DNA of 64,000 nucleotides from Sphingomonas jinjuensis (GTDB lineage Bacteria; Pseudomonadota; Alphaproteobacteria; Sphingomonadales; Sphingomonadaceae): the NCBI RefSeq assembly GCF_014197105.1, contig NZ_JACIEV010000003.1, forward strand, positions 186,001 through 250,000. Direction: 5' to 3'. Positions 34,961 through 45,531 of this stretch are shown in pieces. Position 1 is the stretch's first letter. Each line of letters begins with the position of its first letter. A model generated the notes under the pieces. It saw only the letters and a program-made list of their open reading frames with translations. It did no database searches and was not told where the DNA came from. The position numbers were made by a program, and so were the translations under genes.

Positions 34961-36094
34961 ATGCTGGCGTTGCTGTTGCTGCTGCAGGCGATTTCTCCCG
35001 ACGTCATCGTCACCGGCAAGCGACTGGAAGAGGCGCAGAGCCTTTGCGCCAGGGGGGCCTGCGACCCGTTGCGCGATGCCCAGGCGAGCATCGCACTGGC
35101 GGAGGCGCGCTTTCGCAGCGGCGGGTATCGCGAGGCCAAGGATATCCTATGGGCGGCGATCTTGCGTAACCGCCGCCATGCTGCGACCGATCCGAAGCCG
35201 GTGGCCGCGATCTACGAGGCCTATGCCACCGTCGCGCTCCACGACGGTGACCTCAAGGCCTATCGAATAGGTGTTGCCGGTCGTGTGCGGACGTTGCGTG
35301 ATCATCTGCCGGGCGACGATACGTCGGTCATCGCGGCGTCGAGCGCGCTCGGTGACATGTGGATCAATCTCGAGAACTTCCGCCAGGCCGACGCTGCCTT
35401 CGACGCGGTCGAACGCGATGCGTCGCGAGCGGGGCTGGCACGCACGGCGATGATCGCTGGCATGAAGCGCGTCTGGCTGGCGGCAGCGATGGGCAATGGC
35501 GCGACCGCCCGCTTGATGCTTGCGCAGCTATACCGCCGGCCGATCGCCCGGGAGCAGGCCATGCGGACCGCGCTCGACGTGTTGGCGCTGCGCATTGCGA
35601 CGCGTCAGGCCAGCGAGCAGGACATCGACCGGCTGGTGCAGCAGGTAAAGCGGACGCAAGGCGAGCCATCGGCGCTGATCTACGCACCGCGATGGGAGGA
35701 GCGGGTGAGCAGAACCGCTACCCGCAACGCCTCGGTCGCCTTTCGGGAGCGCGACATCTTCCAACCCGTCGCTGCGGAGGTCGAAAACCTCAGCTGGATC
35801 GACGTCGGCTTCTGGATACGGCCAGACGGCACCACCGGCGACATCGCGATGCTGCGCTCGACCTACAAACCGTGGTGGACCGGCATTGCGCTGCGACAGA
35901 TCGCCGGTCGTCGCTACACGGCCTTGGCGAACGCCGATGGCGCCGATCAGGGGTTGGGCATTTACCGGATCGAGCGCATCACCAAGCGCACGCGATATGT
36001 TAAGCCTGTGAACAGCCTCATCGAGCGGCATGTCGCCGCCGACGGCTACGAGGTGCTGGACCTGACCGGCCCGCCGAGCGGCAAGGCCGGCTGA
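34961..36094 (+). CDS. Exported TPR-like protein with TonB-C-like C-terminus
   Basis: A 377-residue protein. A short hydrophobic start (MLALLLLLQAISP) looks like a signal or anchor, followed by DVIVTGKRLEEAQSLC, a motif common in exported sphingomonad proteins. Residues about 40-260 are helical pairs with A-rich spacing as in tetratricopeptide repeats. The last ~100 residues, with IDVGFWIRPDGTTGDI and GRRYTALAN, resemble the TonB C-terminal fold. It may act as a periplasmic adaptor; no specific function is known to me. Confidence 0.75.
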   Translation: MLALLLLLQAISPDVIVTGKRLEEAQSLCARGACDPLRDAQASIALAEARFRSGGYREAKDILWAAILRNRRHAATDPKPVAAIYEAYATVALHDGDLKAYRIGVAGRVRTLRDHLPGDDTSVIAASSALGDMWINLENFRQADAAFDAVERDASRAGLARTAMIAGMKRVWLAAAMGNGATARLMLAQLYRRPIAREQAMRTALDVLALRIATRQASEQDIDRLVQQVKRTQGEPSALIYAPRWEERVSRTATRNASVAFRERDIFQPVAAEVENLSWIDVGFWIRPDGTTGDIAMLRSTYKPWWTGIALRQIAGRRYTALANADGADQGLGIYRIERITKRTRYVKPVNSLIERHVAADGYEVLDLTGPPSGKAG

Positions 36095-36103
36095 CCACGA
36101 ACG

Positions 36104-38377
36104 TTACCGCAGCCGATCGATCGCCTGCGCCAGCGCCACGTACAGCTTGCCCATATCCGACGACAGCAAGGTCACGCCCAGCGGCGAGCCGTCGCGTTGC
36201 GCGAGGATCGTGCGCAGCAGGCCTTCGAAGTCGTGGATGTAGCGGTTGACCATCTCGCGGAACGGCCCTTCCTCGTCGTAGAGGCGAGCGATCTCGCGAG
36301 CCTCGACCGGCTCGAGGATGCGAACGGCGCGGCGGGTGAAGACGCCGCGGTCGCCCTTCAGATAGGCCGCCCAGGCGCTGTCCGAGACTTCGGGCGAGAA
36401 GCTCTTGGCGATGTCGATCGAGGCGGAGTTGAGCGCCTCGATCAGCAGCGAGGCGCGGCGGGCGAAATTGTCCTGCACCGCTTCCTCGCGCTCGGCGCGG
36501 GCGTCCTCGATACGGCTCTCGACGAGCGCTGACTGCTCGACGATCGCCTGGACCTGGATCGCCAGCTTCTCGGTGGCGCGGGTTGCGGCGTCGGCGGCGG
36601 CGTCGGCGGCATCGCCGATTGCGCGGATCTGGCGCTCGACGGTGTCGCTGGTGGCGCGGCGCATCGCCTCGGCACTGGCATTGCCGAGCTGGTCCGCGGC
36701 CTCGGGAATGACACTGGTCAGCGTCTCGCGGGCCTTGTCGGCGGCGACCGAGGCGGTCTCGCGGACACGCAGCAGTGCCTCGACGAGGCGCGGCGCGGCC
36801 TCTTCGGCGAACAGGTGCGTCCGCCCGATCGTCTCATCGACCATCGAACCGAGCGCATCGGCCTTTTCGCGGCCGTCGGTCAGCGTCTGGAGCAGCGTCG
36901 ACGACAGATGGTCGAGCGTGCGGCGCTGTTCGGATATGACGCCGGCGATCGCCTCGATCGCGTCATGCGTGCTTTCCGCGGCGGTGACGAGCGCGAGTAG
37001 CTCCGGACGCGCCTGGACGACGACCGCCTTGCTCGCCGCGATCTTCTCGTCGAGCCGGCCGAGCGCTTCGGGCAGCGTCTCGTCGATCTCCCGCGCGGCG
37101 GCGTCGAGCGCGATCAGCAGCGACTCGGTCGTCGCAATGGTGCGCGAGGCCATGTCGTCGCCGGCCTGGAGCGATACCGTCATCGCATCGGCCGAGCCGC
37201 CGAGCGCGCTGATCGAGGCGGCAAGCAGCTGCGAGCGTTCGACGCCCTGGCTATGAAGCGCGTTCAGTCGCTGCTCGACGCGGGCAATGCCCGATTCGAG
37301 GGCGGCGACCAGATCGTCGCCATCGCGCCGCTGCGTGTCGAGCCGGGCGGAGAGGCGATCGATCACGCTTTCGACCGCCGCGATGCGCTCGGCCAGCGCC
37401 TCAGCACTGTCGCGCGCGGCGCTATCCAGTGCGGCCTGATTGGCGCCGACCATGGCGAGCATCGCGTCGCCCTGAGCGGCGATACCCTTGCGCGCCTCGT
37501 CGACGGCGTCGGCGGTGCGGCCGAGCAGGGCGTCGACGGCGGTCGACATTTCGCCGGTGACCGCTTCCAGCCGGGCGCCGGCGGTCTCGCTAGTCGCCTC
37601 CATCCGCTGGATATGCGCGGCGAGACGCTGGGCGGCACCGCCGGCGACGGTGTCGGCCTCGCGGCCCCGCTCGACCAGCGCATTGAGGCGCGCGTCGAGC
37701 GCGGCGGCGTGCTCGCTGGCGGCGAGGCCGGTTTCGTCGAGCAGCTTGCCGATATGCATCGTCTCGGCCTGCGCGCGGGGCAGCGACGCCAGCAGGACGC
37801 CGAGCGACGATTGGGTGTCGGCGGTGACCGACGACAGGCTGCGCGCATGCGCCTCCGCCTGGCCGATCTCCAGCGCGAGGCCGCGGCCGACGGCGGCGAG
37901 CCGTTCGCCGGCGGTGTCGCCGAGCGCGGCGAGTTCGGCGGCCTGCTCGGCGAGTGAGCGGCGGTTGGCCTCGAGCACGCGCGACATCGCTGACACGGTA
38001 CGCTCCAGCACCGCCGCCTCGGCCCGCATGGCGCGGGCGGTGGCGCCGAAGCGGCGTGCCTCGGCACGGCTGGTACGCATCGCGAGCAGCCAGACGATCC
38101 CTACCAGCGCCGGGACGACGGCGAGCGCAGCGACGAACTGGGCGATCTCGACCGGCGCCAGGCCTGGTAGCCAGCGCCAGGACAGAGCGAGCATGCCGGC
38201 AATCCAGGCGACGCAGACGACCGCGGCGAGCGTCGGCGCGATCCAGAGCCGGCCGCCGGCCTGATCCAGCGACTCCTCCAGTTCGAAGATGTCGTCGACC
38301 GGCCCGATCTCAGCGGCGTCGGGGCCGGGAGCGGCGATGGGCTCCCCGCGAATGTCGACGATCATGCTGTCCCCCAT
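36104..38377 (-). CDS. Membrane-anchored coiled-coil protein of unknown function
   Basis: A 757-residue protein. An acidic N-terminus (about 40 residues) is followed by two membrane segments (APTLAAVVCVAWIAGMLAL and FVAALAVVPALVGIVWLLAM). About 600 residues of alanine-rich heptad sequence come next, interrupted by regular A-x-x-A repeats, and a more globular C-terminus of about 120 residues with RRAVRILEPVEAREIARLYD. It resembles the cytoplasmic helical part of chemoreceptors in composition but lacks the hairpin-tip signature. The alternative start ATG at 38365 (MIVDIRGEP) has GGGGGAC before it. It is divergent from the Hpt-like gene and may belong to the same signalling cluster. Confidence 0.8.
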   Translation of the reverse strand: MGDSMIVDIRGEPIAAPGPDAAEIGPVDDIFELEESLDQAGGRLWIAPTLAAVVCVAWIAGMLALSWRWLPGLAPVEIAQFVAALAVVPALVGIVWLLAMRTSRAEARRFGATARAMRAEAAVLERTVSAMSRVLEANRRSLAEQAAELAALGDTAGERLAAVGRGLALEIGQAEAHARSLSSVTADTQSSLGVLLASLPRAQAETMHIGKLLDETGLAASEHAAALDARLNALVERGREADTVAGGAAQRLAAHIQRMEATSETAGARLEAVTGEMSTAVDALLGRTADAVDEARKGIAAQGDAMLAMVGANQAALDSAARDSAEALAERIAAVESVIDRLSARLDTQRRDGDDLVAALESGIARVEQRLNALHSQGVERSQLLAASISALGGSADAMTVSLQAGDDMASRTIATTESLLIALDAAAREIDETLPEALGRLDEKIAASKAVVVQARPELLALVTAAESTHDAIEAIAGVISEQRRTLDHLSSTLLQTLTDGREKADALGSMVDETIGRTHLFAEEAAPRLVEALLRVRETASVAADKARETLTSVIPEAADQLGNASAEAMRRATSDTVERQIRAIGDAADAAADAATRATEKLAIQVQAIVEQSALVESRIEDARAEREEAVQDNFARRASLLIEALNSASIDIAKSFSPEVSDSAWAAYLKGDRGVFTRRAVRILEPVEAREIARLYDEEGPFREMVNRYIHDFEGLLRTILAQRDGSPLGVTLLSSDMGKLYVALAQAIDRLR

Positions 38378-38490
38378 AACTCAACCCTACGCGTAACACG
38401 TTCTCCGGCGGCGTGGAACGCGTGGCGGAACGCCCGCGCGACGGATCGAGGTAACCATTGCTTAATCATGCGATCGGTAGAGCCGGTGGC

Positions 38491-38781
38491 ATGGCATATG
38501 ATCCCGGGGCAATAGATTCGGCGCTTGCGGCCGCCGTCGGCGACGAGCCCGGCCTGATCGCCGAGCTGCGCGTGGCGTTCGTCGAGAGCGCCGAGCGCAC
38601 CGCGCTCTCGCTGGAGCGTGCCGCGACGCCCGAGGACTGGCGGAATGCCGCCGCCCGCCTGAAGGGGCTGGCGGCGAGCTTCGGTGCGGTTCGCCTGATG
38701 GCGCTGGCCACCGAAGCGTCGGATCGCGCGGGGGATGCCGAGCTGTTGACGAAGATCAAGCGCGCCATCGCTCGCCTGTAA
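38491..38781 (+). CDS. Hpt-like protein lacking the phospho-acceptor histidine
   Basis: A 96-residue helical protein. RNAAARLKGLAASFGAVRLM (residues 51-70) aligns with the Hpt motif AHxLKGxAxxxGA, but the histidine position is A55. The hydrophobic and glycine positions are kept, so the four-helix fold is probably intact while phosphotransfer is not possible at the usual site. The start ATG at 38491 was chosen over an upstream in-frame ATG at 38458. It is the first of four co-directional genes. Confidence 0.72.
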   Translation: MAYDPGAIDSALAAAVGDEPGLIAELRVAFVESAERTALSLERAATPEDWRNAAARLKGLAASFGAVRLMALATEASDRAGDAELLTKIKRAIARL

Positions 38782-38865
38782 GGCAGCGGTCGTTTCGGCA
38801 AACGCGCGTCGCTTTGCCGCCGGTTGCGGGTTGCATCCCCGCCGTGGTCCCGTAACAGCCCTGCC

Positions 38866-40047
38866 ATGCTCGCCGGGCTCCTCATCGCCGTTCACGAGGC
38901 CGACGATCGGCCGGGCATGCTCACCGCCACGCTGCCGTTCGGCGGCACGACGCTGATCGAGTATCAGGCGCGGCTGCTGATCGGTGCCGGCGTCGCGCAG
39001 ATCGTCGTGCTGGTGTCGCGACTGACGCCGGAACTGCTCGGCGCGCTGGGACGGATCGGGCGTCGCGGCGTCGCCGTCGATGCCGTGCGGACCGCGCCCG
39101 AGGCGGCACAGAAATTCCACCCCCTCGCGCGCATCGTCATGCTCGCTGATGGGCTGACCACCACCGACGACGTCATGGAGGTCATCGCGCGCGACGGTCG
39201 AGACGCACTGCTCGTCGTGCCCGACGACGCGATGCGGCCGGGATACGAGCGCGTCGGCGGCGGTATGGCTTGGGCCGGCGCGGCACGACTCGATGCGCGG
39301 CGTTTCGGCGAGGCGGCGGAGATGCCGCGCGACTATGACCTTCAGGCGACGCTGCTGATGCTCGCGTCGCAGGCGGGCGCGATCCATGTGCTGCTGCCGA
39401 GCGATGCCGAGCGCCACGGCCATGCGATTGGGCATAGCGGCGCGGCGCTGGAAGCGCGCGGGCGCACCGTGCTGGCGGCGATGGTGTCGACGCGGCGCGG
39501 CTGGTTCGATCGGCTGGTCGTCGCCCCGATCGCGCGGGCGCTGGTGCCGGTGCTGGTGCCGCGCGCGGTGCCGCCGGTCGCGATCGCCGGGGGCGGGGCG
39601 GTCGTCGGTGTCGTCGGCTTGGCGACGTTGGCGTTCGACCATCCTCTCATCGGGTTGATCCTGGCGCTGGGCGCGACGGTGGCGCTGTCACTGGCGGCGG
39701 TGTTCGCTGAACTGCGCGACGAGGGCGAATCGGCGCGGCCGTTCCGCCATGCCGCGGCGATCCTGCCCGGGTTGGCGGCGCTGGTGTATGGCCATGCCGC
39801 GGCGCGGGTCAGCAGCGAGGGCGGGCCGCTGCTCGCCGCGGTGGCGCTGATCGTCATCGCGGTGCTCGGCGAGCGGGCGATCGGCAAGGTGCCGCGGCGT
39901 CGCTGGTGGGGAAGCCCACCCGCCTATCTGCTGCCGTTGCTGCTCGGTGCCGCGGCCGCGATGCCCATCGCGGGACTGGTGCTGGCGGGCGGCTATGCTA
40001 CCGCAACCGCCTCGGCCGCAATCGAGCGGCTGCGGCGACAAGCTTAA
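38866..40047 (+). CDS. Membrane protein resembling a degenerate nucleotidyltransferase/CDP-alcohol phosphotransferase fusion
   Basis: A 393-residue protein. The N-terminal ~190 residues look like a sugar-nucleotidyltransferase fold (GLLIAVHEADDRPGMLTATL then LIEYQARLLIGAGVAQIVVL) but lack the GxGxR...KP catalytic loop. The second half has about six membrane helices, and PIARALVPVLVPRAVPPVAI resembles the entry to a CDP-alcohol phosphotransferase domain, without the DGxxAR...D motif. Together this is like a catalytically dead relative of the archaeal/bacterial inositol-phosphate synthesising fusions. Assignment is tentative. The start ATG at 38866 was chosen over an upstream TTG. Confidence 0.65.
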   Translation: MLAGLLIAVHEADDRPGMLTATLPFGGTTLIEYQARLLIGAGVAQIVVLVSRLTPELLGALGRIGRRGVAVDAVRTAPEAAQKFHPLARIVMLADGLTTTDDVMEVIARDGRDALLVVPDDAMRPGYERVGGGMAWAGAARLDARRFGEAAEMPRDYDLQATLLMLASQAGAIHVLLPSDAERHGHAIGHSGAALEARGRTVLAAMVSTRRGWFDRLVVAPIARALVPVLVPRAVPPVAIAGGGAVVGVVGLATLAFDHPLIGLILALGATVALSLAAVFAELRDEGESARPFRHAAAILPGLAALVYGHAAARVSSEGGPLLAAVALIVIAVLGERAIGKVPRRRWWGSPPAYLLPLLLGAAAAMPIAGLVLAGGYATATASAAIERLRRQA

Positions 40048-40077
40048 TCTCGTCGTAACCGAGACTTGGCTATCGCT

Positions 40078-41184
40078 ATGGTGATGACCGACGTGTCGAC
40101 TTCAGAAGAGCGGGCGCAGCTGACGGCGCGGCTTGCCGCGGCACGCGCGGCGCGAGGCCGTGCCGACGCCCGCCTGACCGGTGCGATCGACGATTTTTTC
40201 ATTCCCCGCGACGCGCGACTCGACGATCGGTTGCGGTCCGCGGTGAGCCGACTGCTCGCCGGACTGGTCGGGGCGATCGAGACCGAGCTTCGCCGCCACG
40301 CCTCTCGCGTTCTGCAGGGCAAGGGAGAGCATCAGCGGGCCGATATGCTGCTGGGCGGCCACGCGGAGGTCGAGACGCGGCTGTCGCGTGCCGGTCTGCT
40401 GCGCGACCGGCGGTTGATGGACGAACTGATCGCGCGGGCCCGCGGCGACCTGATGGCGCAGGGGTTGGGGGCGACGGCGACCACGGGCGATCGCGCGAGC
40501 CTGCTGGTGCGATTGGCCGACGATGCCGATGGCGTGGTCGCCTCGGCCGCCGGCGCGCTGCTGGTGGCGGAGACGCGGCGGCGCAGCGGCAACGAGACGG
40601 GACAGCCACTGGGCAGCGATCTGCCGGCGGAGCTTCACCATCAGCTGGTCTGGTGGGTGGCCGCGACGATCCGCGAGACGATTACCGCGCGCAGCGGCGA
40701 CGATGCGCAGATCGACCGGGCGATCGTCGAGGCGGCGCAGCGCAACCTTGCAGCGCATGACGAGAGCGCGCGGCCCGAGGCGGTCGCTGGCCGACTCGCG
40801 TTCGCGCTCGATCCGCGGCCCCACGAGCTTGCGCCTCTACTGGTCGAGGCGCTGGGCGACCGGCAGCTGACGCTGTTCGTGGCGCTGCTGGGACGTGCGC
40901 TCGACATCGATTTCGATGCGGTACGCGCGATCGTGCTCGAGCCCGAAGGCGACCGGCTGTGGTTGGCGCTGCGAGCCGCGAACCTCGATCGCACGACGAT
41001 TGCAACGGTGGCGCTGGCGCTGGCGGAGGCCGATCCCCGCCGCGATCTGGAAGCCTTCGCCGACGAGCTCGACGCCATCATGGCGGTGCCGCCCGAGGCG
41101 GCTCGCTCGGCGCTGGCGCCGTTGACGCTCCACCACGACCTGCGCCTCGCGATCGACGCCCTGGCGCGCGAGGCGCGGCGATGA
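40078..41184 (+). CDS. DUF2336-like protein
   Basis: A 368-residue soluble helical protein. The repeated helical units in the middle and C-terminal part (VRAIVLEPEGDRLWLALRAA followed by LDRTTIATVALAL) match the DUF2336 pattern, often found near sensor kinases in alphaproteobacteria. Its function is unknown. The start is uncertain: ATG at 40078 is used, with ATG at 40084 as an alternative. The stop overlaps the start of the kinase-like gene (ATGA), so the two are translationally coupled. Confidence 0.72.
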   Translation: MVMTDVSTSEERAQLTARLAAARAARGRADARLTGAIDDFFIPRDARLDDRLRSAVSRLLAGLVGAIETELRRHASRVLQGKGEHQRADMLLGGHAEVETRLSRAGLLRDRRLMDELIARARGDLMAQGLGATATTGDRASLLVRLADDADGVVASAAGALLVAETRRRSGNETGQPLGSDLPAELHHQLVWWVAATIRETITARSGDDAQIDRAIVEAAQRNLAAHDESARPEAVAGRLAFALDPRPHELAPLLVEALGDRQLTLFVALLGRALDIDFDAVRAIVLEPEGDRLWLALRAANLDRTTIATVALALAEADPRRDLEAFADELDAIMAVPPEAARSALAPLTLHHDLRLAIDALAREARR

Positions 41185-42563
41185 ATGCGATCCCGATGAT
41201 CGACGACGTCATCAGCTATGCGACGATCGATCGCGAGGGTCGGCTGGTCACCGCCGATCCGGTCTTCTCGACGCTCAACGATCATGCCGGTGGCGGTATC
41301 GGCCAGCCGATCGCGGTGCCGGCGCTGGCGACGATCGCGCGGCTGGCGCATCGACTGGGCATCCTCGTCTCGCGCGGGGTAGTGGTCGGCGACACCGATG
41401 CGCCGGTCGAGCTGTGGGTGAAGGCGGAGCCGATCGGCAACCTCGTCCGGTTGGCGATCAGCGGCTGGCGCGAGGGGCGGCGGATCGCACCGGCACCGAT
41501 CGACGAGGCGGCGGCGGCGGCGATCGGCACCGACCTGGGCTGGGACGTGGATGCGGCGCTGCGCTTCACCTACATCGCGCTCGACGGGGCGCGGCAGCTG
41601 GGGATCGATGCGATTGCCTTGCTTGGCAAGCCGATCACCGCGCTGTTCCAGTTCGAGGAAGATCGCGACGGATCGATGCCGCTGCTGGAGGCGGTCGCAC
41701 AGCGTAAGCCGTTTGAGCAGCAGCGCGCCCTGCTGCGCGCGCCTAATGCGCGGCAGGTGATGCTGTCGGCGTTCGTGCGGCGCGATCCCGATGGCGGCTT
41801 CGCGGGCTTTTCGGGGGCGGCCAACCTGATCGTCGAGCCGGGTAGCGAGACGCCGGCACCGCCGCCGTCGATGGCGGCGATTGCCGGCGATGGACTGAAC
41901 CAGGCGCTGCGCACGCCGCTCGCGCGGATCATCGACACCGCGGAGACGATCAGCACCTCCGCCGAAGGGCCGATCCAGCAGGAATATGTCGATTATGCCG
42001 CGCACATCGCGCACGCCGGCCGGCACCTGCTGGGGCTGGTCGACGACCTGATCGACGTCCATGCGATCGAGCGCGAGGATTTCCACCCGACGCTGAGCGC
42101 GATAGACCTGGCCGATGTCGCGCGCCGCGCCGCCGGGCTGATGTCGGTGAAGGCGAGCGAGGTCGGGGTGGCAATAGCGCGGCCGCTGCCGGCGCTACAC
42201 GTTACCGCGATGGCTGATTTCCGCCGGACGCTTCAGATCCTGGTCAACCTGATCGGCAATGCCGTGCGCTATTCGCCCGAGGGCGGGGTGGTGACGGTAA
42301 GCGTGACGGCGACGCCCGATGGCTTCGCCAATGCGATCGTCGCCGACAAGGGGCGTGGGATCGATCCCGCCGATCATGACCGGGTCTTCGCGAAGTTCGA
42401 GCGCCTCGACCCGCTGGAGGCGACGGGCAACGGGCTGGGCCTCTACATCGCCCGGCGGCTGGCGCGGGCGATGGGCGGGGAGCTGACGGTTGAGAGCGAG
42501 CCGGGCGAGGGCGCGCGGTTTACCCTGTCGCTACCGACGCAGCCGGCGCGCCACGAGGATTAG
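41181..42563 (+). CDS. Histidine-kinase-like protein with a lost H-box histidine
   Basis: A 460-residue soluble protein with PAS-like N-terminal half and a kinase core. The dimerisation helix reads GLNQALRTPLARII (residues 238-251): by alignment to SHELRTPL, Q241 replaces the phospho-histidine and A242 the catalytic acid. The ATP-binding domain is complete, with N box (LVNLIGNAVRYSP), G1 (DKGRGI), F box (VFAKFERL) and G2 (GNGLGLYIARRLA). No membrane segment is seen. It may bind ATP and signal by conformation, like DivL of Caulobacter, or serve as a scaffold. The 3' end overlaps the antisense small gene by 33 bases. Confidence 0.85.
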   Translation: MNAIPMIDDVISYATIDREGRLVTADPVFSTLNDHAGGGIGQPIAVPALATIARLAHRLGILVSRGVVVGDTDAPVELWVKAEPIGNLVRLAISGWREGRRIAPAPIDEAAAAAIGTDLGWDVDAALRFTYIALDGARQLGIDAIALLGKPITALFQFEEDRDGSMPLLEAVAQRKPFEQQRALLRAPNARQVMLSAFVRRDPDGGFAGFSGAANLIVEPGSETPAPPPSMAAIAGDGLNQALRTPLARIIDTAETISTSAEGPIQQEYVDYAAHIAHAGRHLLGLVDDLIDVHAIEREDFHPTLSAIDLADVARRAAGLMSVKASEVGVAIARPLPALHVTAMADFRRTLQILVNLIGNAVRYSPEGGVVTVSVTATPDGFANAIVADKGRGIDPADHDRVFAKFERLDPLEATGNGLGLYIARRLARAMGGELTVESEPGEGARFTLSLPTQPARHED

Positions 42564-42731
42564 GCCGAGGCCGAACACCGCGACGACCGCGCCGCGATCG
42601 GCCCAGGCGCCCTGGCCCAGCATGAAGCTGGACGAGGGCCACATGATGTATCCCAGCCCCTGCCCAATCCAGAGCAGACCGACGAGCGTGACGATCACGC
42701 CCGTCGCGATCAGGATCGGCCGAAGGCGCAT
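42531..42731 (-). CDS. Small membrane protein, 66 residues
   Basis: A protein with two membrane segments: RPILIATGVIVTLVGLLWIG at the N-terminus and DRGAVVAVFGLGLILVARRL at the end, joined by a loop with MWPSSSFMLGQ. Composition and charge distribution (positive ends inside) look real. It starts three bases after the gltA stop, so it is probably the last gene of the gltX-gltA transcript. Its 3' end overlaps the kinase-like gene on the other strand. Function unknown. Confidence 0.75.
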   Translation of the reverse strand: MRLRPILIATGVIVTLVGLLWIGQGLGYIMWPSSSFMLGQGAWADRGAVVAVFGLGLILVARRLRR

Positions 42732-42734
42732 CGG

Positions 42735-44018
42735 TTAGCGCTGGCCGACGGGGATATAGTCGCGCTCGGTCGGGCCGGTGTACAGCTGGCGCGGACGACC
42801 GATCTTCTGGTCGGGATCCGTGATCATCTCGTTCCACTGCGCGACCCAGCCGACGGTACGGGCGAGCGCGAAGAGCACGGTGAACATCGACGTCGGGAAG
42901 CCGATCGCCGACAGGATCACGCCCGAATAGAAGTCGACGTTCGGGAACAGCTTCTTCTCGACGAAATAATCGTCGTTGAGCGCCAGCTCTTCGAGCCGCA
43001 GCGCGGTTTCGAACAGCGGATCATTGACCTTCAGCGCGTCGAACACCTCGCGCACCGTCTTCTGCATGACGGTCGCGCGCGGATCGTAGTTCTTGTAGAC
43101 GCGGTGGCCGAAGCCCATCAGGCGGAACGGATCGTTCTTGTCCTTGGCGCGGGCGATGAACTCGGGGATGCGCTCGGGCGTGCCGATCTCGCGCAACATG
43201 TTGAGCGCAGCCTCGTTGGCGCCACCGTGCGCCGGACCCCACAGGCACGCGATGCCCGCCGCGATGCAGGCGAAGGGATTGGCGCCCGACGAACCGGCGA
43301 GACGAACGGTCGAGGTCGATGCGTTCTGCTCGTGGTCGGCGTGGAGGATGAAGATGCGGTCCATCGCGCGCTCGACGGCCGGGTTCACCTCATAGGGCTC
43401 AGCCGGCACGCCGAAGGTCATGCGCAGGAAGTTGCCCGTGTAGCTGAGCGAATTGTCGGGATACAGGAACGGCTGGCCGACGCTGTACTTGTACGCCATT
43501 GCCGCGATCGTCGGCATCTTGGCGATCAAGCGGTGCGACGCAATGGTGCGCTGCTGCGGATCGTGGATGTCGGTCGAGTCATGATAGAAGGCGCTGAGCG
43601 CGCCGACGACGCCGCACAGGATCGCCATCGGGTGCGCGTCGCGACGGAAGCCGCGGAAGAAGGTCGCCAGCTGCTCGTGGACCATGGTGTGGCGGCTGAT
43701 CGTGCGGCTGAACTTCTCCAGCTCGTCGGCGCTCGGCAGCTCGCCGTTAAGCAGCAGGTACGACACCTCCATGAAGCTTGACTGCTCGGCCAGCTGGCCG
43801 ATTGGGTAGCCGCGGTGGAGCAGCACGCCCTCGTCGCCGTCGATGAAGGTGATTTCCGAACGGCAGCTCGCGGTCGAGGTGAAGCCGGGATCATAGGTGA
43901 AGTCGCCGGTCTGGGCATAGAGCTTGCGGATGTCGACCACGTCGGGCCCGATCGTGCCCGACAGGACCGGATATTCGAAGTCACCACCGTTGACGGCAAG
44001 TTTGGCGGAATCGGTCAT
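42735..44018 (-). CDS. gltA: Citrate synthase
   Basis: A 427-residue type II citrate synthase condensing acetyl-CoA and oxaloacetate. Active-site residues lie in [34 protein letters not shown] and [13 protein letters not shown]. The start ATG lies 20 bases after the gltX stop, so the two are probably cotranscribed. Confidence 0.97.
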
Positions 44019-44038
44019 GCGAAAAGGCGTCCTTCCTG

Positions 44039-45475
44039 TCAGGCGGCCATATGATCGGCGATGCGACCAAGGCTCTCCTCGCGCCCGAGCAGCACGAGGA
44101 CGTCATAGATCCCGGGCGACGTCTTGCGCCCAGTGAGAGCGGCACGGAGCGGTTGCGCTGCCTGGCCGAGCTTCACGCCACGTGCCTCGGCAACCTGCCG
44201 TACCGCCGCTTCGAGTTCTTCCGTATCCCAGTTGTGCACTGCGTCAAGCGCGCTGTGCAGCGCAGACAGTATCGCGGGTGCATGACCCTCGAGCAGCGGC
44301 GCGGCGGCGGGATCGATCGGCAGCGGCCGGGCGACGAACAGGAAAGCGGCGCCTTCGGTCAATTCGTTGAGGTTGGCGGCGCGGACCTTGAGCACCGGCA
44401 TCGCCCGCTCGACCAGCGGCAGCGCGTCGTGCCCCCAGCCGCCACGCTCGACGACCAGCGCCGCGAGCCGCGCATCGTCGGCCTCGCGGATGTAATGGCC
44501 GTTGAGATTCTCGAGCTTCTTCAGGTCGAAGCGCGAGGGGCTCTTGCCGACGGCGGCGAGGTCGAACCATCCGGTCGCCTGCTCTCGGCTAATGATCTCG
44601 TCGTCGCCATGGCCCCAGCCGAGGCGGAGGAGGTAATTGTCGAACGCTTCGGGCAGGATGCCCATCGTGTCGCGATACGCCTCGATCCCGACGGCGCCGT
44701 GGCGCTTCGACAGCTTGGCGCCGTCGGGGCCGTGGATCAGCGGGATATGCGCATAGACCGGCTCGGCCCAACCCATCGCGCGGATGATCGGCAACTGGCG
44801 GAAGGCGTTGTTGAGGTGGTCGTCACCGCGGATGACATGGGTCACGCCCATGTCGTGGTCGTCGACCACCACCGCGAGCATGTACGTCGGCGTGCCGTCG
44901 GAACGCAGCAGGATCAGGTCGTCGAGCTCGGCATTCTGGACGGTGACCGGACCCTGCACCTGATCGTCGATCGTCGTCGCGCCCTCCTGCGGCGCACGTA
45001 GGCGAACGACGAAGGGCTGGCCGGCGGGTGCTTCCGAGGGATCGCGGTCGCGCCAGGGGCTGCGGATCCGCAAGGGGCGCTTGGCGGCCTGCGCCTCGGC
45101 GCGTTGCTGCGCGATCTCGTCCTGCGTCATCCAGCAGCGATAGGCGTGGCCGCGCTCAAGCAGCTCGGCGGCGACGGCGGCGTGACGATCCGCGCGGGCG
45201 AACTGCATGACGGCGTCGCCATCCCAGTCGAGCCCGAGCCAGCGCATGCCCTCCAGAATCGCGTCGATCGCCGGCTGCGTAGAGCGGGCGCGGTCGGTGT
45301 CCTCGATGCGGAGCAGGAAGCGGCCGCCATGATGGCGCGCGAACAACCAGTTGAACAGCGCGGTGCGCGCGCCGCCCAGGTGGAGGTAGCCGGTCGGCGA
45401 CGGTGCGAAGCGGGTGACGACGGTGCCGTTCTGCTTCGCTTCCGTGGCGGTGTCGTGATCGATCGTTGCGCTCAA
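44039..45475 (-). CDS. gltX: Glutamate-tRNA ligase
   Basis: A 478-residue class I synthetase. The HIGH-like motif is [18 protein letters not shown] and the KMSKS-like motif is [10 protein letters not shown]. The full-length C-terminal anticodon-binding domain separates it from the short GluQRS forms. Alphaproteobacteria often carry two GltX; whether this one is discriminating cannot be judged here. Divergent from comEC. Confidence 0.95.
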
Positions 45476-45531
45476 GCGCGCGTGCTCCCAAGCTCGAATG
45501 GATGGCCTCTTCAGCCGCCGCGCCCCCTAGC

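Follow-up and report, generated by a model that had tools for sequence, protein, structure and literature searches.

A histidine kinase-like protein without its phospho-histidine

The stretch of DNA analysed here, called the window below, comprises 64,000 nucleotides of the Sphingomonas jinjuensis genome (contig NZ_JACIEV010000003.1, positions 186,001 to 250,000), and the gene under study, at 41181-42563, encodes a protein with the build of a PAS histidine kinase that lacks the histidine such enzymes phosphorylate. We refer to it as the pseudokinase; genomes (G), loci (L), genera (g) and families (f) carry our own labels. The gene and its parts are as follows:

41181..42563, plus strand: pseudo-histidine kinase of 460 residues, arranged PAS-PAS-DHp-CA (Pfam HATPase_c, AlphaFold2 (AF2) model, Foldseek)
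41214..41474, plus strand: putative first PAS-like domain, residues 12-98 (AF2 secondary structure; no Pfam match)
41535..41828, plus strand: second PAS domain, residues 119-216 (PAS_4 at E 1.9e-4 and PAS at 0.0074, both below the cut-off; AF2)
41871..42071, plus strand: DHp helical hairpin without phospho-His, residues 231-297 (AF2 helices 231-259 and 264-297)
41901..41906, plus strand: Q241-A242, occupying the positions of phospho-His and acid (alignment with solved kinases)
42096..42536, plus strand: CA (ATP-binding) domain, residues 306-452, with intact N, G1, F and G2 boxes (Pfam, AF2, ortholog rows)

Residues 238-251 of the product read GLNQALRTPLARII, with GLNQALRTPL where histidine kinases carry SHELRTPL. 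When the protein is aligned by HMMER with the solved kinases HK853 and ShkA, N240-Q241-A242 fall on their S-H-E; the His position is thus held by Q241 (codon CAG at 41901-41903) and the acid position by A242, as a preliminary description of the sequence had read them. The HATPase_c family scores 94.2 bits against a Pfam cut-off of 26.4, and HisKA 22.6 bits, under its cut-off of 26.9. Set against what makes a HisKA-type histidine kinase (PF00512 plus PF02518), the protein has the DHp hairpin, the CA fold and all four boxes of the ATP site, namely N (N356, N360), G1 (D389, G391, G393), F and G2 (G416, G418, G420), and lacks the H box, where both the His and the acid are gone. The AF2 model has a mean pLDDT of 85.7 and a pTM of 0.51 (28-sequence alignment), with residues 407-414 poorly defined; because the pTM is low, the arrangement of the domains is unsure. 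Its Foldseek matches include HK853, ZraS, ShkA, RetS and DivL.

Such a loss is rare in the host genome: there are 47 HATPase matches, and among the 30 that were read, 26 have a His in the DHp region, two look CheA-like, and only the pseudokinase and one DivL-like gene have none. The latter (L206, G000 C3:275100), called DivL-like from its SYELRTPL motif and its length and not from a family model or tree, has the N box EVVEHLLRHAIAAT, in which both Asn are lost while the DxGxG motif remains. A peptide-pattern search in named genomes returned 17 distant matches, at 26-46% identity.

One loss of the H box, with the ATP site held invariant

We sampled 199 genomes of the host family, 156 of which matched the pseudokinase at E<=1e-40; 152 were counted as pseudokinase genomes and seven as canonical kinase genomes, and in 40 no ortholog was found. 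Eighty loci were fetched, about one per genus (81 including the window), and with 20 more of the same genus, minus the canonical L133, these make up 100 orthologous rows.

At the His site, the rows carry P (48), R (22), Q (6), A (6), K (5), T (5) or E (2), with N, V, G, H, D and S once each and no Tyr. The acid site reads A in 46, V in 44, S in 5, I in 3, K in 1 and G in 1, and is never acidic; the T of the HExxT motif has become Q (45), G (13), A (12) or others, and stays T in six rows only. The one row with a His (L123) has no acid alongside, and nine further genomes added no His, which brings the total read to 94 of the 152 pseudokinase genomes. A recent single mutation, which the preliminary description had named as one outcome that would overturn its reading, is ruled out by this family-wide non-His state; the absence of His, which that description had proposed to check in homologues, is general in the family and old, and the Q itself is not conserved. 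The ATP site behaves in the opposite way: N356, N360, D389, G391, G393, G416, G418 and G420 are the same in all 100 rows, so the statement that the ATPase boxes are complete extends to every ortholog read. Of the 230 core columns, 24 are invariant, and the probability that these would by chance include the whole set of eight ATP columns is 4e-9 (hypergeometric, with the columns taken as independent). In variability, the H-box columns 240, 241 and 245 rank at the 82nd, 79th and 84th percentile of the core. Residue 408, which belongs to the lid region, is R in 100/100 pseudokinase rows and Q in 16/18 canonical rows; R408 is a candidate mark of a new function.

The gene directly upstream, which the preliminary description had already coupled to the kinase, is this:

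40066..41184, plus strand: DUF2336 protein (PF10098, E 1.3e-14, 54.7 bits against a cut-off of 34.6)

The end of this gene and the start of the kinase share 4 nt, the ATGA at 41181-41184 that holds its stop. We fetched 20 DUF2336 loci, 19 from families f2-f8 and one (G040) from the host family, and these gave 17 readable kinases next to DUF2336, all 17 with SHEL(R/K)TPL; the 16 that belong to other families of the order all lie side by side with DUF2336. The coupling seen in the window is found with canonical kinases as well; the pairing is real and predates the loss of the His. Across the class, DUF2336 is found in 73/190 genomes at E<=1e-20; 28 of these loci were read, a kinase lies in the 1.5-kb flank at 16, and 15 of those 16 keep the His. 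At the remaining locus (L339), the first DHp helix of the kinase-like open reading frame (ORF) could not be placed, and it is possibly a broken sequence or another loss. Inside the host family, six genera retain the His: g86 (G085, G150), g41 (G040), g53, g57, g8 (G007, an assembly with 7% contamination) and g13.

Kinase-core trees were built with the H-box columns left out. In a quick tree of 118 rows, all the pseudokinase rows lie on one side of one branch (SH-aLRT 98); in a tree of 71 rows, the 50 pseudokinase rows included are again on one side of a branch, with support of 99/93 and in 200/200 bootstrap trees, the bootstrap of that tree being not fully settled and some of its rows long (two of these, L285 and L287, join). 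About half of the pseudokinase rows were dropped from it, as were L158 (long) and L293 and L294 (partial). As the pseudokinase rows fall on one side of a branch, with the root placed in the other families, there was one loss of the phospho-His: the host's lineage lost its H box, with the His, the acid and the T of HExxT, a single time while the ATP site was held invariant. By gene pair and tree, the canonical PAS histidine kinases that other alphaproteobacteria encode next to DUF2336 are orthologous to the pseudokinase, which descends from a kinase of this type. They differ in keeping SHELRTPL and in their surroundings: 12/20 loci (families f1, f2, f3, f5, f6 and f7) have flgL upstream, at a distance of 0.9-5.7 kb and on the same strand, FlgK and flagellin-type domains being confirmed by Pfam in the three flgL loci scanned. 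The kinase of the pseudokinase lineage is mostly found at a citrate synthase locus and not at flgL, and the canonical kinase of g86 is already there.

The gene row around the pseudokinase

Three more genes upstream of DUF2336 belong to the picture, the last of which is given as context and not claimed as a part of the switch discussed below:

38866..40047, plus strand: probable membrane protein descended from a CDP-alcohol phosphotransferase whose catalytic motif it has lost (from positional orthologs)
38491..38781, plus strand: HPt (histidine phosphotransfer)-like protein without phospho-His, AAARLKG (PF01627, 27.7 bits against a cut-off of 24.6, for the frame 38476-38778)
36104..38377, minus strand: long coiled-coil-like protein (COIL; coiled-coil-like by eye), divergent neighbour of the HPt gene

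The order COIL, HPt, CDP-alcohol-phosphotransferase-like gene, DUF2336, kinase, citrate synthase, gltX, comEC, with COIL, citrate synthase and gltX on the opposite strand, is complete in 36/81 loci, and Pfam supports the names of the last three genes in the window. Across the 81 loci, profiles detected DUF2336 in 60, HPt in 60, the CDP-alcohol-phosphotransferase-like gene in 76 and citrate synthase in 75, the genes missing from a row being partly past contig ends or elsewhere in the genome: the HPt gene lies with COIL at another place in G075, G186 and G091, and far from the kinase also in G011, G081, G042 and G044. From their order and strand, the kinase, DUF2336, HPt and third gene would form one transcript. 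A hydropathy scan gave no transmembrane-like segment in the kinase, the DUF2336 protein or the HPt; an Rfam scan of 36000-45500 returned no match, and promoter and terminator scans of 38300-42800 found nothing. COIL has one N-terminal hydrophobic stretch (by eye) and no Pfam family above cut-off. The DUF2336 model is all-helical (AF2, pLDDT 87.4), without a PDB fold match at E<=0.001. Genomes of just 2.1 Mb (L097, L123, genus g25) keep the module with no detectable HPt, an argument that its role persists even when a genome is small.

The preliminary description had seen a two-protein module; it is perhaps one of four proteins, the HPt and the gene between it and DUF2336, which that description did not mention, standing in the same row and both being without their catalytic residues. 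At the place of HxxKG, the HPt reads AAARLKG, with an A at the His site (38653-38655). Among 60 HPt rows of the pseudokinase lineage, the one of L083 ends before the site, and the other 59 read M (16), L (12), Q (12), W (7), H (3), A (2), S (2) and five letters once each; adding 0/10 in same-genus copies and 0/4 in copies of further genomes, the His is present in 3/73. Two such copies were also scanned with PF01627: L061 scores 22.1 bits, and L112 has no match. Set on the kinase tree, the HPt state needs four changes, a shared loss and three scattered His (L061, L065 and L126), as would be expected of a free site.

Orthology of the HPt to those of other families rests on their shared divergent neighbour, COIL, the COIL-HPt pairing being kept in several families of the order, outgroup families included; this link is strong in G085, G150, G040, G204, G208, G234, G209, G247, G215 and G005, and weak, with matches that are partial and biased in composition, in G202, G219, G056, G007, G199, G206 and G201. 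With that link, the HPt His is kept in 14/14 genomes whose kinase was read as canonical, and also in G202 and G219 (kinase unread) and in G005 (no kinase ortholog found). This count leaves out L308, L310, L311 and L312 (His present, no COIL nearby), L313 (an unread second match in G202) and L248 of G072, which matches at E 5e-4, lacks a His at the aligned position and was not put to the COIL test. A profile of the pseudokinase-type HPt matched in 121/152 pseudokinase genomes, 4/40 genomes without a kinase ortholog and 0/7 canonical ones, counts that are uncorrected for kinship and obtained at a threshold favouring the pseudokinase type.

As for the third gene, its product has no Pfam family above cut-off, and its ancestry is read from positional orthologs in the early genera g18 and g86, which match PF01066. 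The catalytic motif of CDP-alcohol phosphotransferases is DGxxAR...G...D; DGVDGKLAR is present in G017, G085 and G150, and the intact motif was seen only in g18 and g86. The full motif is absent from the window copy and was recovered in 0/74 derived orthologs, whether by alignment, which is poor, or by a pattern search of whole proteins; a loose DGxxAR string occurs in three of them (L055, L075 and L092). Hydrophobic segments at residues 217-279, 322-340 and 355-373 suggest that the product is in the membrane.

Genus g86 (L249, L258 and L133) is a living intermediate: it has the gene order of the pseudokinase lineage, from COIL through HPt, the CDP-alcohol-phosphotransferase-like gene, DUF2336, kinase and citrate synthase to gltX, with about 3.5 kb extra between the third gene and DUF2336, and it keeps the kinase His, the HPt His and the DGVDGKLAR string. 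In G017 (L259, 8560-12720), the neighbours of the module encode an inositol-1-phosphate synthase, an NTP transferase and another CDP-alcohol phosphotransferase, whose motif is intact; in its older setting, the module may have stood among genes of inositol lipid synthesis.

All four genes look like working genes and show purifying selection between close orthologs. The ratio of non-synonymous to synonymous substitution rates (dN/dS) is 0.105-0.182 for the kinase (five pairs), 0.166-0.244 for the HPt (three pairs), 0.107-0.273 for DUF2336 (five pairs) and 0.073-0.389 for the third gene (five pairs), values computed on stop-to-stop frames (those of the kinase take in some upstream bases overlapping DUF2336) and with synonymous distances that approach or exceed 1 for some of the pairs. 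The frame is open over its whole length in 99/100 kinase rows, and that of L083 begins at residue 69. A single internal stop was flagged in 11 listed matches; of the eight checked, seven have frames that reach the normal C-terminal end, the eighth being L083.

A proposed binding-based switch and its rivals

An acceptor side freed from selection next to a frozen nucleotide side is best explained by a use of nucleotide binding itself or by catalysis on another molecule. The preliminary description had thought of an ATP-controlled switch or scaffold, and the reading that we favour, at a probability of roughly 55%, goes in that direction: the genes would form an ATP-gated, non-phosphorylating pseudokinase module, in which an old phosphate relay would have been turned into a switch based on binding. 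The PAS domains would receive the input and set the ATP or ADP occupancy of the CA domain (ATP binding is predicted from its residues); occupancy would alter the shape of the DHp dimer; DUF2336 would read that shape, as its linkage and the overlapping stop and start suggest; and the dead HPt and the membrane protein would probably read it too, as binding or anchoring parts. The signal would thus pass by conformation and binding and not by phosphate, and the pseudokinase, judged by its residues, is predicted to retain ATP binding and to be incapable both of autophosphorylation and of classical DHp phosphatase activity. Inhibition of a relay by a dead HPt is known from the plant pseudo-HPt AHP6, which has Asn for His and acts perhaps by competition (PMC7402358, in excerpt); AHP6 is likewise an HPt minus its His, of an unrelated lineage, whereas here the HPt gene stands in a row with a pseudokinase gene. 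A wider version, in which the whole phosphorelay limb has become a phosphate-free complex, that is, a membrane-tethered, ATP-gated switch of three dead enzymes plus DUF2336, with the former CDP-alcohol phosphotransferase as membrane anchor and the ATP pocket as the sole moving part, is tentative, and we lean against it.

One has to keep in mind several points that weigh against the switch. The invariant ATP site could serve folding, or the trans phosphorylation of a partner; three scattered HPts of the pseudokinase lineage carry a His; no HPt was found in the fetched stretch at 21/81 loci and no DUF2336 at 21/81, so that neither is constantly close to the kinase, and at least seven of the genomes in the first group have the HPt at another place; DUF2336 diverges fast; HPt and kinase lie at separate places in the sister-family genomes read; and G017 (g18) combines a kinase that is already pseudo with an intact CDP-alcohol phosphotransferase motif, its search for a COIL-linked HPt having found none, so that the losses were not all simultaneous.

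The main rival, which we consider unlikely, makes the pseudokinase one half of a heterodimer, its intact CA domain phosphorylating in trans the His of a canonical partner whose DHp provides both His and acid. The pattern of loss, confined to the residues of the acceptor side and sparing those for ATP, is what this would require, and the host genome has many His-bearing kinases to choose from. A precedent is found in Corynebacterium, where the ChrS pseudokinase is a dead kinase acting via a partner kinase: the excerpted text of PMC9491836 reports native ChrS-HrrS paralog heterodimers in two-hybrid assays and discusses stimulation of HrrS by the ChrS pseudokinase, with some interaction that could not be observed. 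That pseudokinase is laboratory-evolved, with a frameshifted, truncated CA and its His kept, i.e., the reverse of the present case (same excerpt). In the gene row there is no gene for a partner kinase, and the loss of the HPt His is not predicted for the HPt of a working phosphorelay; we prefer the switch over the heterodimer because in the same row the HPt, too, is without its phosphate site.

The model pseudo-histidine kinase, with which the preliminary description had drawn a parallel, is DivL, a protein essential to the cell cycle by way of DivK and CckA. PAS domains before a DHp-CA core, the missing phospho-His, an expected dead kinase and lineage-wide retention are indeed shared. Caulobacter DivL has a conserved Tyr, binds ATP weakly (TNP-ATP, 57 uM) and has neither kinase nor phosphatase activity, one DivL with Ala at the His site being named as well (PMC4211667, in excerpt). 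In these respects the parallel does not hold: the pseudokinase has Q, no conserved letter and no Tyr in any of its 100 rows, a perfect ATP site, and links to DUF2336 and a dead HPt. It is a different gene from DivL, and that it should be DivL itself is ruled out by the separate DivL-like gene of the host genome. The pseudokinase might nevertheless work as DivL does, its DHp surface binding a phosphorylated response regulator and relaying this to another kinase, with ATP binding incidental. DivL reads DivK~P without kinase or phosphatase activity of its own (same excerpt of PMC4211667), and the pseudokinase matches DivL (4q20) in sequence and fold; against this stand the drifting site and invariant ATP residues where DivL has Tyr and weak binding, the degenerate N box of the DivL-like gene already present in the host, and the gene row, in which no response regulator gene was seen. 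We hold this reading to be less probable still than the heterodimer.

It is very improbable that the protein is still an active kinase with another DHp His as acceptor. The second DHp helix has a His, H282, in 100/100 rows, but 16/18 canonical relatives have it as well, and it is therefore no replacement for the lost one; this rules out a relocated acceptor. Within the first helix (residues 236-262), 16/100 rows carry a His, at scattered positions, and the acid is gone in all. A classical phosphatase-only kinase is also unlikely, with the T of HExxT in 6/100 rows and the acid in 0/100. Ordinary decay of an unneeded gene, with which the variable H-box columns, the 40/199 family genomes without an ortholog found and the late start of the L083 frame would agree, is largely refuted by the dN/dS values and the 99/100 open frames, which mark a gene that is not decaying, as well as by the invariant ATP site and a gene order kept in many genera.

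The ancestral flgL linkage could suggest flagellar control. We rejected this for the present lineage: 60/152 pseudokinase genomes have no flagellin match, so the present role needs no flagella, and flagellin is commoner in genomes without the kinase (34/40, uncorrected for kinship). Two Caulobacter proteins of motile-sessile control resemble parts of the module: CCNA_03265, a hybrid kinase reported to lack the conserved His, and HmrB, a putative HPt without HxxKG (PMC11481889, in excerpt). The first differs as a hybrid kinase with a receiver, the second by its predicted dimerizing helical hairpin and an hmr cluster limited to Caulobacteraceae, and the main text of that paper does not mention DUF2336. 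Our literature search (titles and abstracts, with supplements and most subscription journals outside its range) found no paper on DUF2336, also searched as COG5330 and PF10098, and none on a DUF2336-linked pseudokinase or a Sphingomonas pseudo-histidine kinase.

As an evolutionary fact, the DUF2336-linked pseudokinase is well supported by the comparisons above, and its function is what we infer from them. It is a second, widely kept pseudo-histidine kinase whose pattern is opposite to that of DivL, with a drifting acceptor and an invariant ATP pocket, and the canonical relatives inside the host family allow the two states to be compared. For DUF2336, the analysis supplies a concrete candidate partner, as well as a neighbourhood of flagellar genes in sister families. 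The paired loss of the His in kinase and HPt poses the question of whether phosphorelay signalling may go on without both of its phosphate carriers, with ATP occupancy as the signal.

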